From: an uncultured Muribaculaceae bacterium
GTDB taxonomy: Bacteria > Bacteroidota > Bacteroidia > Bacteroidales > Muribaculaceae
Direction of reading: 5' to 3'
DNA: 34,837 bases
Assembly (NCBI GenBank): GCA_944321715.1
Contig: CALUMJ010000028.1
Location: 1-34,837 of the forward strand
Shown: positions 3,971 to 8,856 of the stretch, one piece after another
Layout: every line of letters starts with the position of its first letter
Numbering within the stretch: position 1 is the stretch's first letter
Notes under the pieces: generated by a model
What the model saw: only the letters and a program-made list of their open reading frames with translations
Database searches by the model: none
Told to the model about the DNA's origin: nothing
Translations under genes and position numbers: made by a program

Positions 3971-5122
3971 TTACAGCAGGCCCTTGGTGGAGGGGAGGCG
4001 GTAGTGGAACACATCGCGGCGCACGGCGGCGCGTAGGGCGCGTGCCAGTGCCTTGAATATGCCCTCAATCTTGTGGTGTTCGTTGTCGCCGTGCGCACAT
4101 ACGTAGAGGTTCATGGCGGCAGCGTCGCTGAGGCTTTTGAAGAAGTGGCGGAACATCTCGGTGGGCATCTCCCCTATTTTCTCGCGGTGGAACTCGGCAT
4201 CCCACAGCAGCCACGGACGGCCGCCAAAGTCGAGTGCGACAGTGCAGTCGCAGTCGTCCATCGGCAGCACGAAGCCATACCGCTCGATGCCGCGCTTGTC
4301 GCCCAATGCCTTGCGTAACGCTTCGCCAAGTACGATTGCCGTGTCTTCGATAGTGTGGTGTTCATCGACCCACAAGTCACCCTTCACCTTTATGGCAAGG
4401 TCGATGCCCGAGTGCCGTGCAATCTGCTGCAACATGTGGTCGAAAAATCCCAAACCAGTGTCGATGTCGGCACGTCCATCGCCATCTATGTCGATGTCCA
4501 CGCTGATGTCGGTTTCGGCTGTCTTGCGCTTCACGTGAGCAGTGCGCGAGCCACCACGCAAGAAGTCGGCAATGCGGCTCCAGTCGTCGGTGACAAGTGC
4601 CGTGCAGCCTCCAAGCCCGGCATCTTCCACCTCTTTGCGTCCTGTGCCTTCAGGGGCAAAGTAGATAGCCTTTGCTCCAAGGTTGTGCGCAAGCATCACG
4701 TCGGTGAGGCGGTCGCCTATCACGAATGATGCTTCGAGGTCGTAATCTCCACCCATATATTTGCCAAGCAGTGCCGTACCCGGTTTGCGGGTCGGCTTGT
4801 TCTCGTGTGGGAAAGATGTGTCGATTATAATGTCGTCAAACCTAACCCCCTCGCCCTCAAGCGTGTCTATGAGCAAGCGGTGCGGTGGCAAGAAATCCTC
4901 CATTGGGAACGATGCCGTCCCCAATCCGTCTTGGTTGGTCACCATCACAAGCTCGTAGTCGAGCGTCGAGGCGATAAAAGCTAAGTTCCTTATCACACCT
5001 GGCACAAACTTGAACTTCGCAAGGCTATCCAATTGGTAGTCCTCGGGCGGCTCTACCACCAATGTGCCATCACGGTCGATGAACAATGCCGTGCGGCGCA
5101 GTTTACAGTCGGTCGTTGTCAT
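3971..5122 (-). CDS. hisB: Bifunctional histidinol-phosphatase / imidazoleglycerol-phosphate dehydratase
   Basis: A 383-aa fusion carrying two steps of histidine synthesis. Residues 1-185 are the HAD-type histidinol-phosphate phosphatase (FIDRDGT, nucleophile D16 and D18; GDRLTD at about 136-141). Residues about 193-383 are imidazoleglycerol-phosphate dehydratase with its metal-binding motifs FDHML (227-231), DEHHTIED (253-260) and a second [10 protein letters not shown] near 345. The fused layout is shared by enterobacteria and Bacteroidales. It is the last gene of hisGDCB; its start overlaps the end of hisC by 20 bp, which suggests translational coupling. It is probably controlled by the attenuator upstream of hisG. 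Confidence 0.97.
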
Positions 5123-6146
5123 ACTCTTTCAACGTTTCAATCAACAATTCATTATCTTCGCGGCTGCCGACGGTCAAGCGCAAGCATCCCTCGCACATTG
5201 GCACACGGTTGCGGTTGCGCACCACGATGCCTCGGGCAAGCAGGTAATCATACAATCCATCGGCATCGCCGACACGCACAAGCAGAAAATTGGCATCGGA
5301 GGGAAAAATTCGCTCAATGCACCGCAAACGCCCAAGCTCGACAGCAAGCCAATGGCGAGCTTCCCTGATTTGCCGCACCTCGTCGCGTATCGTGCCGATA
5401 CCGTCAAGCAATTCCAGTGCATAACGCTGCGTGAGCAGATTGATGTTGTAAGGATACTTCACCTTATTGTAAAGGCCGATGATTTCCTTCGACGCAAAAG
5501 CCATGCCGAGCCTCACCGATGCACTTGCCAATGCCTTGGAAAACGTTTGCAATACTATCAAGCGGGGCAATTCGGCAAGGCTTCCGAGCATCGACCCGCG
5601 GTCAGAAAAATGCACGTATGCCTCATCAACCACCACTATACCGTCAAAACGGCGGCACACATCGGCAATCATTTCGAGAGGAAACGCATTGCCAGTGGGA
5701 TTGTTGGGCGAACATATCCACACCACACGTGTATTGTCGTCGGTTGCAGCCAACAACCTGTCGGCATCAAACCCAAAATCCTCATTCAGAGCCACTGTGC
5801 GATATTGCACATCGTTAATGTCGGCACACACTTCATACATTCCGTATGACGGGGCTATCGCCACCACATTGTCGATGCCCGGGCGGCAAAAAATGCGGTA
5901 AGCAAGGTCGATACACTCGTCGCTGCCCACGCCGAGGAAAATCTGGTCGGCCGGCACGCCCTTTATTTCGGCAATTTTCTCCTTCAGTTGCTGTTGCAAA
6001 GGGTCGGGATAACGGTTATATGGCTCATTGTATGGGCTTTCATTGGCATCGACAAACACGTGCGCCTCGCCCGTGTATTCGTTACGAGCCGAGCTATAAG
6101 GCTTCAACTCCCATATATTTTTCCTTACGAGTTTCTGTAATTCCAT
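5103..6146 (-). CDS. hisC: Histidinol-phosphate aminotransferase
   Basis: A 347-aa PLP-dependent fold-type I aminotransferase converting imidazole-acetol phosphate and glutamate to histidinol phosphate. Visible marks are [17 protein letters not shown] near the N-terminus, SPNNPTGN at about 174-181, VVDEAYVHF at about 201-209, and the PLP lysine in [15 protein letters not shown] at about 225-239. It lies third in hisGDCB, 13 bp after hisD, and its 3' end overlaps hisB by 20 bp. Confidence 0.97.
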
Positions 6147-6159
6147 AATTCAGTGTATG

Positions 6160-7443
6160 TTATTGCTCATTAATACGCACTTCCAAGGCAAGGCTGTGTG
6201 CTACAAGACCCTCGTTGCGAGCCATCGTGGTCACGGCAGGTGCTATCGAGGCAAGGCCTTCACGGGAGAGTCGCTGAAATGTGATTTTTTTCATGAAACT
6301 ATCGATATTCACGCCACTGTAGCAGCGCGCATAGCCGCTGGTAGGCAATGTGTGGTTGGTACCCGAAGCATAATCGCCGGCACTTTCGGGAGAGTAAGCT
6401 CCAAGAAATACCGAACCTGCATTCTCGACCATCGCAGCAAGCCGCTCGGCCTGCGAGTGGTTTATTATGAGATGTTCGGGGGCATAATAGTTGGCAAATT
6501 GCATCATTTCCTCATCGTCGTGCAATAATATTATGTGGCTGTGGGCAAGCGACCGTCGCGCGAGTTCGTCCTTGGGCAAGCGTGAAAGCAGCAGGTCGAT
6601 GTCGCGGCACACGGCTCGGGCAAGCTCTCCATCAGTAGTGAGCAGAAGCGACTGGCTGTCGGCTCCATGTTCGGCTTGCGACAAGAAATCACTTGCCACA
6701 TACATCGCATTGGCACTGCCATCGGCCACGACCATCACTTCCGACGGGCCTGCCGGCATGTCGATGGCTACCCCCCGGGCATTGACTTGCACCTTGGCCT
6801 CGGTCACATAGCGGTTGCCAGGCCCAAATATCTTGTAAACAGGCGTTATGCTCTCGGTGCCAAGAGCCATTGCCGCCACCGCTTGCGCACCGCCGACCTT
6901 GTAAATGTCGCCGACACCAGCCACACGTGCAGCATACAATATGGCAGGATGAATAGTGCCATCGCGACGTGGCGGCGTACACAACACCACCTCGCGGCAA
7001 CCGGCAAGCCGTGCCGGAATGGCAAGCATCAGCACAGTCGAAAACAGCGGCGAATTGCCACCCGGAACGTAAAGCCCCACACGTGAAATAGGCACGGCGC
7101 GTTGGCGGCAATCAATCCCGGGCATTACCTCCACTGCCACTTCCGGCGGCAATTCGGCGGCATGGAATTTCGCAATATTGGCGGCAGCCACACTTATTGC
7201 TTCCTGCAAGTCAGCTGGCACTTCCCGGCAAGCTGCATCAATCTCCTCGTCACTTACCTTTATCGTGTCTAAGTGGCAACCGTCAAACCGTTCGGTCATC
7301 TCCTTCAATGCCTCGTCGCCTCGTGCAGCCACGTCGTCGATGATTTGTGCCACATTGCGGCGCACTGTTTCATCGACCACGGCTGCCCGCCTCGCATATT
7401 GCGCCCAATCGGTCCGCTTGGGATATTCTACAATCTCAACCAT
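6160..7443 (-). CDS. hisD: Histidinol dehydrogenase
   Basis: A 427-aa zinc- and NAD-dependent enzyme that oxidises L-histidinol twice to L-histidine. The signature region SQAEHGADSQSLLL holds the zinc ligands Gln and His. Other family marks are YVPGG, GPGNRYVTEAK and PTSGYARCYSGVNIDSF near the C-terminus. It is full length for HisD and lies second in the operon, 15 bp after hisG and 13 bp before hisC. Confidence 0.97.
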   Translation of the reverse strand: MVEIVEYPKRTDWAQYARRAAVVDETVRRNVAQIIDDVAARGDEALKEMTERFDGCHLDTIKVSDEEIDAACREVPADLQEAISVAAANIAKFHAAELPPEVAVEVMPGIDCRQRAVPISRVGLYVPGGNSPLFSTVLMLAIPARLAGCREVVLCTPPRRDGTIHPAILYAARVAGVGDIYKVGGAQAVAAMALGTESITPVYKIFGPGNRYVTEAKVQVNARGVAIDMPAGPSEVMVVADGSANAMYVASDFLSQAEHGADSQSLLLTTDGELARAVCRDIDLLLSRLPKDELARRSLAHSHIILLHDDEEMMQFANYYAPEHLIINHSQAERLAAMVENAGSVFLGAYSPESAGDYASGTNHTLPTSGYARCYSGVNIDSFMKKITFQRLSREGLASIAPAVTTMARNEGLVAHSLALEVRINEQ

Positions 7444-7458
7444 ATCAAACCTTTCGCT

Positions 7459-8313
7459 TTATGGAACCATCTTCATTATATCAAGCACCAAGATGCCCTC
7501 GGCACCGGCCTCTTTAAGCCTCGTCGCCACATCCCAGAAATTCGCCTCCTCTATCACCGAATGCACCGAACACCAATTTTCGTCGGCGAGCGGCAATATT
7601 GTCGGGCTTTTGATTCCCGGCAGTATAGCCACCACTTCATCGAGCTTTTCACGAGGCACATTCATCAACAAGTATTTCTTGCCATCGGCATCTTTCACTG
7701 CCTTGAAACGGAAAATCAGCTCATTAAGCACTTTCTGCTTCTCGTCGGGCAACTGGCAGTCGCCGCCTATCAGCACAGCCTGCGAATCGACCACCTTCTC
7801 CACTTCCACAAGGTTGTTGCTCACAAGCGTGCCACCCGACGACACTATGTCAAATATCCCATCGGCAAGCCCTATGCCCGGCGCAATTTCCACCGAACCA
7901 TTTATCACATGAATGTCGGCATTGATGCCGTTGCGCATGAGGAAATCTTTCAAAATACGCGGATATGAAGTGGCAATCTTCTTTCCTTCAAACCATTTCA
8001 CTCCGTCATAGGCCACATCACGTGGAATGGCCAGCGACAGGCGACAGCGGCTGTAGCCCAGTTGGTGCAACACCTTCACCCGTTGGCATTTCTCAAGCAC
8101 TTCGTTCATTCCCACTATGCCCACGTCGGCAGTACCCGTAGCCACCGAGTCGGGAATATCGTCGTCGCGCAAATACAAAATTTCAACCGGGAAATTACGC
8201 GACGGCACCAGCAGCGTGCGTTTCACGGCAGGGAATTTAATTCCTGCCTGTGCCAGCAATTCCATTGTTTCGTCATAAAGCCGGCCTTTCGACTGTACAG
8301 CAATTCTAAGCAT
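7459..8313 (-). CDS. hisG: ATP phosphoribosyltransferase, long form
   Basis: First enzyme of histidine synthesis (ATP + PRPP to phosphoribosyl-ATP). The chosen ATG at 8313 gives 284 aa beginning MLRIAVQSKGRL, the usual HisG start; an in-frame ATG at 8349 would add 12 lysine/arginine-rich residues that do not fit the family. The catalytic domain includes TGTADVGIVGMNEV and the PRPP loop IVSSGGTLVSNNL. The C-terminal ~75 residues are the ACT-like regulatory domain of the long, hetero-subunit-independent form, which is normally feedback-inhibited by histidine. The gene is preceded by a leader peptide and attenuator hairpins (8381-8563). Confidence 0.96.
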   Translation of the reverse strand: MLRIAVQSKGRLYDETMELLAQAGIKFPAVKRTLLVPSRNFPVEILYLRDDDIPDSVATGTADVGIVGMNEVLEKCQRVKVLHQLGYSRCRLSLAIPRDVAYDGVKWFEGKKIATSYPRILKDFLMRNGINADIHVINGSVEIAPGIGLADGIFDIVSSGGTLVSNNLVEVEKVVDSQAVLIGGDCQLPDEKQKVLNELIFRFKAVKDADGKKYLLMNVPREKLDEVVAILPGIKSPTILPLADENWCSVHSVIEEANFWDVATRLKEAGAEGILVLDIMKMVP

Positions 8314-8380
8314 TTTTCTTCTTTTTACTTTTTTATCCACGCCTACCATGCCTCATTAAGGAAATCGGGCTGTCGAATAT

Positions 8381-8435
8381 AAAAAATTTACGCCAGCTTA
8401 GCCTTTCCTCTATGGCACTGGCAAGCTGGCGTTAA
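8381..8435 (-). terminator. Attenuator terminator (3:4 hairpin) of the his operon
   Basis: On the minus strand a perfect 10-bp stem, ACGCCAGCTT (8432-8423) with AAGCTGGCGT (8399-8390), extends by three A/T pairs after one mismatch. It is followed by AAA and six T (8386-8381). It ends about 68 bp upstream of hisG and downstream of the His-rich leader peptide, so it is placed to stop transcription before the structural genes. Confidence 0.85.
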
Positions 8436-8542
8436 TAATTCCTTTTTATTATGTGCAAATAGTCAATTTCGCACAACCGTTTACATCAACACGCATCGAC
8501 TTGCCGCAGCCCCTCGTGGTTGCAGTGATAATGCGAATGATG
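8390..8542 (-). promoter_or_regulatory. his leader alternative pairings (pause hairpin 1:2 and antiterminator 2:3)
   Basis: Segment 1 (8542-8531, inside the His codons) can pair with segment 2 (8497-8484) through CATCA/TGATG and CGCAT/ATGCG. Segment 2 can instead pair with segment 3, the 5' arm of the terminator: GGCAAG (8505-8500) with CTTGCC (8425-8420), and GCGT (8494-8491) with ACGC (8432-8429). A ribosome stalled on the His codons would open 1:2, allow 2:3, and block the terminator. The pairings are seen directly; the switching mechanism is inferred from classical his and trp attenuators. Confidence 0.65.
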
Positions 8543-8563
8543 ATGTAGTGCACGAAATATCAT
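8486..8563 (-). CDS. hisL: his operon leader peptide (HisL-like), 25 aa
   Basis: A 25-codon reading frame starting at ATG 8563, with AAGGA 6 nt upstream of the ATG and ending in TGA at 8486-8488. Residues 7-16 are HHHSHYHCNH: six histidines in ten residues. It starts about 15 nt after the predicted transcription start and ends 51 nt before the terminator hairpin. This is the layout of ribosome-mediated attenuators such as enterobacterial hisL, with no obvious sequence relation beyond the His run. The product itself is probably not functional; translation speed through the His codons would sense charged tRNA-His. The frame stays open upstream, but the promoter position and the ribosome-binding site favour this ATG. 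Confidence 0.85.
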   Translation of the reverse strand: MIFRALHHHSHYHCNHEGLRQVDAC

Positions 8564-8581
8564 TTTTGTTCCTTGTTTTGT

Positions 8582-8613
8582 GCAAAAGTAACACATTTGC
8601 CACATTTTACAAA
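8582..8613 (-). promoter_or_regulatory. his operon promoter (TTTG-N19-TACTTTTGC)
   Basis: On the minus strand, TTTG (8613-8610), a 19-nt spacer and TACTTTTGC (8590-8582) form a perfect Bacteroidetes promoter. The predicted start near 8576 gives a leader of about 195 nt to the end of the attenuator T-run. Confidence 0.85.
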
Positions 8614-8856
8614 ACAATTTACTATTTTTTCCGCAAATCTTCTTTAATTTTTTGCTGCTAAGCACTAAACCCGGTAACGAATAGCGGCATTTTGTGGTCA
8701 AATACTACCAATGCCAGAATTTTTGCAGGAAACCAGAGTTAAGGACTAATTTTCGACAATATCTCCGTTTTGCACCACTAATTCATATCCATCTTCAAAT
8801 TTTATACAAAATTATACACTATTTATGTTTTTGATTTTCTAAAATTTGGGATTGGT

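Follow-up and report, generated by a model that had tools for sequence, protein, structure and literature searches.

A very probable ribosome-mediated transcription attenuator upstream of hisGDCB in an uncultured Muribaculaceae bacterium

Ribosome-mediated attenuation of amino acid operons is a well-known kind of switch, as in E. coli, and its presence in the phylum Bacteroidota is already hinted at in print. Vitreschak et al. reportedly predicted amino acid attenuators in Bacteroidetes/Chlorobi in 2004, and the Bacteroid-trp RNA (RF01692) is found upstream of trp genes and includes a Trp leader. The latter is an RNA motif of the same phylum, according to PMC2864571, and differs from the element considered here in that it concerns another amino acid. 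In Flavobacterium psychrophilum, PMC9723704 describes structured elements, one of them upstream of hisG, which are conserved in other Flavobacteriaceae genera and have no Rfam hits, together with strong indications of attenuation by leader peptides upstream of amino acid operons. This hisG element shares both phylum and gene with the attenuator reported below and is presumably the same element. An earlier note on this DNA had called his attenuators much less well described in this phylum; that is true, but they are not undescribed, given the hints from F. psychrophilum (PMC9723704). In B. thetaiotaomicron, a transcriptome study noted short ORFs in long 5' UTRs that recall attenuation leaders, and its main text, where covered here, makes no mention of hisG or of histidine (PMC7366714). 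The his genes of the phylum have been studied by comparison, in work that, in the sections covered, describes no leader or attenuator and mentions attenuation once, for S. enterica and E. coli (PMC8305728).

The enterobacterial his attenuator (RF00514), whose architecture is set out in PMC9413887, shares with the locus described here a run of His codons in a short leader, alternative pairings, a terminator before hisG and the regulatory logic. It differs in that none of 61 genomes of the present phylum, searched with filters that lose some weak matches, matches the RF00514 model at its cut-off. The same paper reports His attenuators found by comparison in the Bacillus cereus group, some Eubacteriales and Erysipelotrichales; these have leaders with three to five His codons, a terminator and an antiterminator, as here, and belong to another phylum. 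Complementary triples in attenuators have been described for trp operons of Actinobacteria with reference to proteobacteria (PMC1262725). No Bacteroidales His attenuator was found in the literature searched, the coverage of which leaves out most subscription journals.

Here we show the order, conservation and covariation of the parts of the hisG leader in an uncultured Muribaculaceae bacterium and its relatives, starting from a stretch of 34,837 nucleotides (GenBank assembly GCA_944321715.1, contig CALUMJ010000028.1), the whole of which is referred to as the window. The hisGDCB leader is very probably a ribosome-mediated transcription attenuator, a reading already given in the earlier note and now supported by comparison, through counts of leaders, hairpins and exchanges between segments 2 and 3.

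The four his genes of the window were identified by NCBIfam profiles (Table 1). They are separated by gaps of 15 and 13 bp followed by a 20-bp overlap, and are therefore likely to form one operon. For hisG, a second in-frame ATG is present at 8349. The next gene after hisB is trpS (NCBIfam), which has its own exact match to the promoter pattern at 3841-3810 on the minus strand and is therefore probably not part of the his operon. Among the best 80 of 166 loci, the closest named HisG is 91% identical and comes from an assembly of Candidatus Avimuribaculum pullicola.

Every part of the attenuator that had been claimed for a short interval upstream of hisG is present between 8613 and 8381 on the minus strand. 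The perfect sigma-ABfr promoter is an exact match to TTTG-N18..22-TAnnTTTG, which we take to be the Bacteroidota sigma consensus. The window holds nine such matches against 0.76 expected, the his leader promoter being one of several, and transcription would start a few bases 3' of the match, at about 8580-8576. The 25-residue leader peptide with six His in ten residues was likewise confirmed. Of the 615 ORFs of 8-40 aa that start with ATG on either strand of the window, those in this frame, counted from three in-frame starts, are the only ones with that His density. A short, presumably translated ORF rich in His codons hence lies directly upstream of the his operon.

Table 1. Positions of the his genes and of the leader elements within the window
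Feature	Position	Strand	Basis and remarks
Bacteroidota-type promoter match, TTTG-N19-TACTTTTG	8583..8613	-	Exact match to TTTG-N18..22-TAnnTTTG
Leader peptide MIFRALHHHSHYHCNHEGLRQVDAC and stop	8486..8563	-	ATG 8563, TGA 8488-8486; 25 codons; 6 His in 10
Segment 1, in the His codons	8530..8547	-	Fold; partner 8482-8497
Segment 2, end of the leader ORF and stop codon	8482..8505	-	Fold; partner is segment 1 or segment 3
Segment 3	8420..8437	-	Fold and swap test; partner is segment 2 or segment 4
Segment 4, 3' arm of the terminator hairpin 8432-8390	8390..8403	-	Hairpin of -23.6 kcal/mol; genus alignment
T6 run	8381..8386	-	3 nt beyond the hairpin stem
hisG	7459..8313	-	TIGR00070, TIGR03455 and ORF; first regulated gene; start set at ATG 8313
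hisD	6160..7443	-	TIGR00069
hisC	5103..6146	-	TIGR01141
hisB, bifunctional	3971..5122	-	NF003937; last his gene of the run

The 196-nt leader RNA folds at -59.3 kcal/mol, beating 200 of 200 shuffles (z -3.57). In this fold the 1:2 pairing joins 8547-8541, 8539-8538 and 8535-8530 to 8482-8488, 8490-8491 and 8492-8497, respectively, which is essentially the pause stem drawn previously (8542-8531 with 8497-8484), longer and with gaps. When the RNA is folded without segment 1 and without segment 4, segments 2 and 3 pair through 8505-8499:8420-8426, 8495-8494:8427-8428 and 8492-8484:8429-8437. Of the antiterminator as first proposed, the first helix (8505-8500:8425-8420) is recovered with one additional pair; in place of the second, 4-bp helix (8494-8491:8432-8429) the fold draws the 9-bp 8492-8484:8429-8437. 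The terminator, predicted to be a 10-bp stem followed by T6, corresponds to a hairpin with a 10-bp outer stem and three more pairs past a bulge, and an AAA spacer separates it from the T-run. A predicted intrinsic terminator, with its T6 run offset, is thus located between the leader and the first gene. The 1:2, 2:3 and 3:4 structures have bases in common and are therefore mutually exclusive.

Upstream regions of hisG were compared in a sample made up of the best 80 of 166 loci from named genome contigs, 30 loci from relatives and the window (111 in total, 98 of them distinct). Short ORFs with at least four His in ten residues were present in 58 of the 98 distinct regions, against 1/98 reverse complements and 16/1960 shuffles. 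With at least five His in ten the count was 36/98 (0/98 reverse complements, 1/1960 shuffles), and at the loose threshold of at least three it rose to 59/98 (7/98 and 137/1960, respectively). No His leader was detected in the remaining 39 of the 98 regions, two of which are truncated at a contig end and too short to judge (L031 with 14 nt upstream and L043 with 164 nt, where the leader seems to be cut by the contig end). Most of the leaderless regions (31 of 39) fall within loci L037-L073, mostly records of ruminant-gut Bacteroidaceae, Prevotellaceae and Bacteroidales, and include L038, with no leader in its upstream region; L014, L017, L026, L027, L034 and others complete the set. A TAnnTTTG match lies 40-80 nt before hisG in several leaderless regions, and regulation there may therefore differ. 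The comparison of homologous leaders, set beforehand as a check, supports the attenuator reading, in that many loci keep the His codons and both the 2:3 and the 3:4 complementarity, though 39/98 have no leader.

All but one of the 59 regions in which three or more His in ten occur also had a hairpin with a U-tract called (58/59). L004 received no hairpin call because its T-run lies further off. The caller is unspecific without an energy cut, as it returns some hairpin in 108/174 shuffled intervals; at -12 kcal/mol or stronger, 55 of the 58 leader loci have a hairpin followed by a U-rich tail, compared with 5/174 shuffled intervals, and no shuffle equals the hairpin of its own locus. These numbers bear on a different account of the final step, in which the position of the ribosome alters the RNA, as in attenuation, but the early ending comes about through Rho or through hisG translation and not at an intrinsic terminator. 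Such an account could draw on the offset of the T-run in the window, on T tails that are weak in the genus mates L002, L003 and L086 and displaced in L004, and on a stock terminator scan (loop limit 8) that did not call the 8432-8390 hairpin. We nevertheless regard it as unlikely in the face of the hairpin counts, and also of the geometry of the locus, where 76 nt separate the end of the hairpin from the hisG ATG and the start region stays outside it.

Evidence for the antiterminator comes chiefly from comparison. In the duplex test, pairing of segment 2 with segment 3 was stronger than with dinucleotide-shuffled versions of segment 2 at p<0.05 in 43 of the 58 loci. The 15 loci that fall short of this level include the window (0.110) and L001, which is its nearest relative (0.114), as well as the genus mates L005 and L088, and L018, L101, L103, L104 and L110. 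When partners were swapped among 40 cluster representatives, drawn from 55 of the 58 loci (L103, L106 and L110 were omitted for an unusual hairpin call), cognate pairs of segments 2 and 3 summed to -630.9 kcal/mol and permuted pairs to -503.5 (sd 17.7), and 0/20,000 permutations were as good. The swap test is perhaps helped by differences in base composition between lineages, a bias against which the dinucleotide shuffles of the duplex test guard. Among the 80 loci with both leader and hairpin, a run of at least seven bases of segment 3 is able to pair with segment 2 and also with segment 4 in 35, the window included, against 279/4000 with shuffled segment 2. This threshold was used because a run of at least five, found in 54/80 loci with 34 core strings, is weak against shuffled segment 2 (1657/4000). 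The runs of at least seven vary by lineage, with GCTTGCC in the window, GCTTACC in L066, CGTTTGA in L122 and CCGTTCTC-type cores in L137, and many of them are shifted or near variants of one another. Comparison thus bears out an antiterminator that cannot coexist with the terminator and whose 5' arm lies in or beyond the regulatory codons, the duplex of the window on its own giving p=0.11.

That last figure is what could be cited for a chance association of a His-rich ORF with unrelated hairpins. Set against it are the conservation of the elements and the control counts for leaders, hairpins and partner swaps, which make coincidence exceedingly improbable. The same data speak to the idea that the ORF encodes a functional small metal-binding peptide, with the hairpins forming an ordinary terminator or a site of processing. 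The stretch HHHSHYHCNH does resemble a metal-binding one. Outside the His run, however, the peptides share little sequence by eye, and the ORF stands before hisG at all leader loci, hisG having been the basis on which they were selected. Segment 2, located at the end of the ORF, also covaries with the terminator arm, as peptide function does not predict. We consider this peptide reading very unlikely, and attenuation remains the preferred interpretation.

Within the genus of the window, an alignment of eight sequences (A1) gave a finer view of the individual stems. In the terminator, four pairs have changed on both sides, a number reached by 6/500 shuffles, and the covariation score was reached by 3/500. 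The 1:2 stem is paired in 63% of cells (1/500 shuffles), its outer helix in 54%, with a covariation score of 0.208 against a shuffled mean of 0.155 and a count of pairs changed on both sides that was reached by 47/500 shuffles; the stem is only moderately kept in the genus. The antiterminator register of the genus, GGGC and GCGGCG with CGCCG and GCCC, is 84% paired, with covariation not above shuffles in these eight sequences (205/500 for cells paired, 179/500 for the score). The register favoured in the window, GGCAAGU with GCUUGCC, is unlike that of its genus mates, and it seems from the alignment that the register has moved between them.

Folding with a ribosome placed at different positions was evaluated in 56 of the 58 loci, L103 and L110 having no value at the stop. 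In the window, with segment 4 not yet transcribed, the mean probability that segment 3 is sequestered is 0.92 at best when the ribosome is in the His codons, compared with 0.35 without a ribosome and 0.06 with the ribosome at the stop. Once segment 4 is present, the terminator of the window reaches 0.97 at equilibrium in all three ribosome states, and the switch must therefore be kinetic. Equilibrium folding indeed fails as a predictor of antitermination both for the window and for 46/56 loci, where the terminator still wins with the ribosome on His, so that the model needs a kinetic race; in the other 10/56 loci the terminator falls below 0.5 in that state. Segment 3 is more sequestered with the ribosome at His than at the stop in 54/56 loci, a contrast counted without shuffle control and in part a consequence of the set-up, since a ribosome at the stop leaves less of the upstream RNA free. 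In some lineages, L064, L076 and L077 among them, segment 3 is equally sequestered without a ribosome and with a ribosome on His.

From these elements we infer a sequence of leader translation, stalling, kinetic race and termination. RNA polymerase would start near 8578, followed by a ribosome on the leader ORF. When charged tRNA-His is scarce, the ribosome would stall in the His codons and cover segment 1, and segment 2 (pairing bases 8505-8484) could then capture segment 3 before segment 4 is made; the terminator hairpin would not form and the polymerase would continue into hisG. When histidine is plentiful, the ribosome would reach the stop codon and cover segment 2, leaving segment 3 to pair with segment 4, and transcription would end at about 8381. 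Without any ribosome, the 1:2 pairing would likewise leave segment 3 free for termination.

The architecture is also present in loci of the same class but another order, L122, L132 and L136 among them. Outside the order of the window, a His-rich leader (at least three His in ten) was found in 26 of 29 loci and a hairpin was called in 24 of those 26, four of the hairpins being weak (L135, L142, L143, L144) and two irregular (L125, L128). These counts were made without shuffle control and with GTG and TTG starts also allowed, on the best 29 of 102 other genomes with a match (118 searched, including that of the window).

Known RNA families do not account for these leaders. In searches with Rfam 15 at the gathering score, no family matched in the window or in eight relatives. 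The His_leader model RF00514 did not reach its gathering cut-off of 49 bits in the window, nor did it exceed the cut-off in any of 61 genomes of the phylum (0/61, the window's own included) under stricter filters, which lose some weak matches. Among 14 control genomes, E. coli and Corynebacterium glutamicum gave matches, one of them over the cut-off. Four places in three other genomes of the phylum scored 34.7-37.2 bits with RF00514, below the cut-off; no his gene was seen nearby by eye and they were put down to chance. With the same stricter filters, RF01692 had no match at E 0.001 in the window's genome. A tRNA-sensing T-box or riboswitch acting in place of a translated leader is a most improbable alternative, for which no supporting point was found and against which the absence of Rfam families at the gathering score can be held. 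The two sub-cut-off matches in 8290-8720, RMST_5 (presumably a human lncRNA region) and Ysr206, were dropped as implausible.

The remaining his gene considered, hisH, is placed differently. A search of the genome of the window, whose completeness is rated at 93%, did not find it, and it was over the cut-off in 8/8 genus mates searched (L167-L174). In seven of these hisH and hisG are on different contigs, and in one they share a contig at a distance of about 165 kb; in all eight hisH is preceded by a gene that, by eye, resembles formyltetrahydrofolate deformylase (purU). Stretches of 3.3-3.5 kb from the eight genus mates showed no short ORF on the hisH strand that begins with ATG and has four or more His in ten. 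With hisH apart from hisG and devoid of a His leader in these genomes, the attenuator therefore seems, in the genus of the window, to guard hisGDCB and not hisH.

Other leader-like ORFs occur in the same genome. Upstream of pheA (contig C2, L153 1326-1474), the ORF MSRFFAYSFFFYFYFHEE, with 7 Phe in 18 residues, is accompanied by a strong hairpin with a T-rich tail, and is likely to be part of a Phe attenuator. On contig C40 (L159, about 1114), a gene judged by eye to resemble ilvD is preceded by the short ORF MNALSSITVMLSAALHVVLSISVVAIVVDILR, in which Val, Ile and Leu are abundant. No trpE was found over the curated cut-off in this genome, where two partial weak matches share one open frame (contig C43).

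From an evolutionary standpoint, we are evenly divided on a broader proposal, namely that the his attenuator of the phylum is one old RNA element, inherited across the phylum, which has kept its architecture through many joint changes of segments 2, 3 and 4. It would then be a widespread class that Rfam lacks and that many rumen lineages of Bacteroidaceae and Prevotellaceae do not have, and in the genus of the window it would govern hisGDCB only, because hisH is in a separate cluster without a His leader.

What is new here is the controlled comparative evidence in Bacteroidales, the corrected antiterminator and the split from hisH. A probable his attenuator is thereby documented in Muribaculaceae and relatives, gut bacteria for which the literature searched holds no such description, and the aligned leaders could seed an Rfam family. 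If it operates as proposed, attenuation of this kind implies that translation and transcription are closely coupled in these bacteria.
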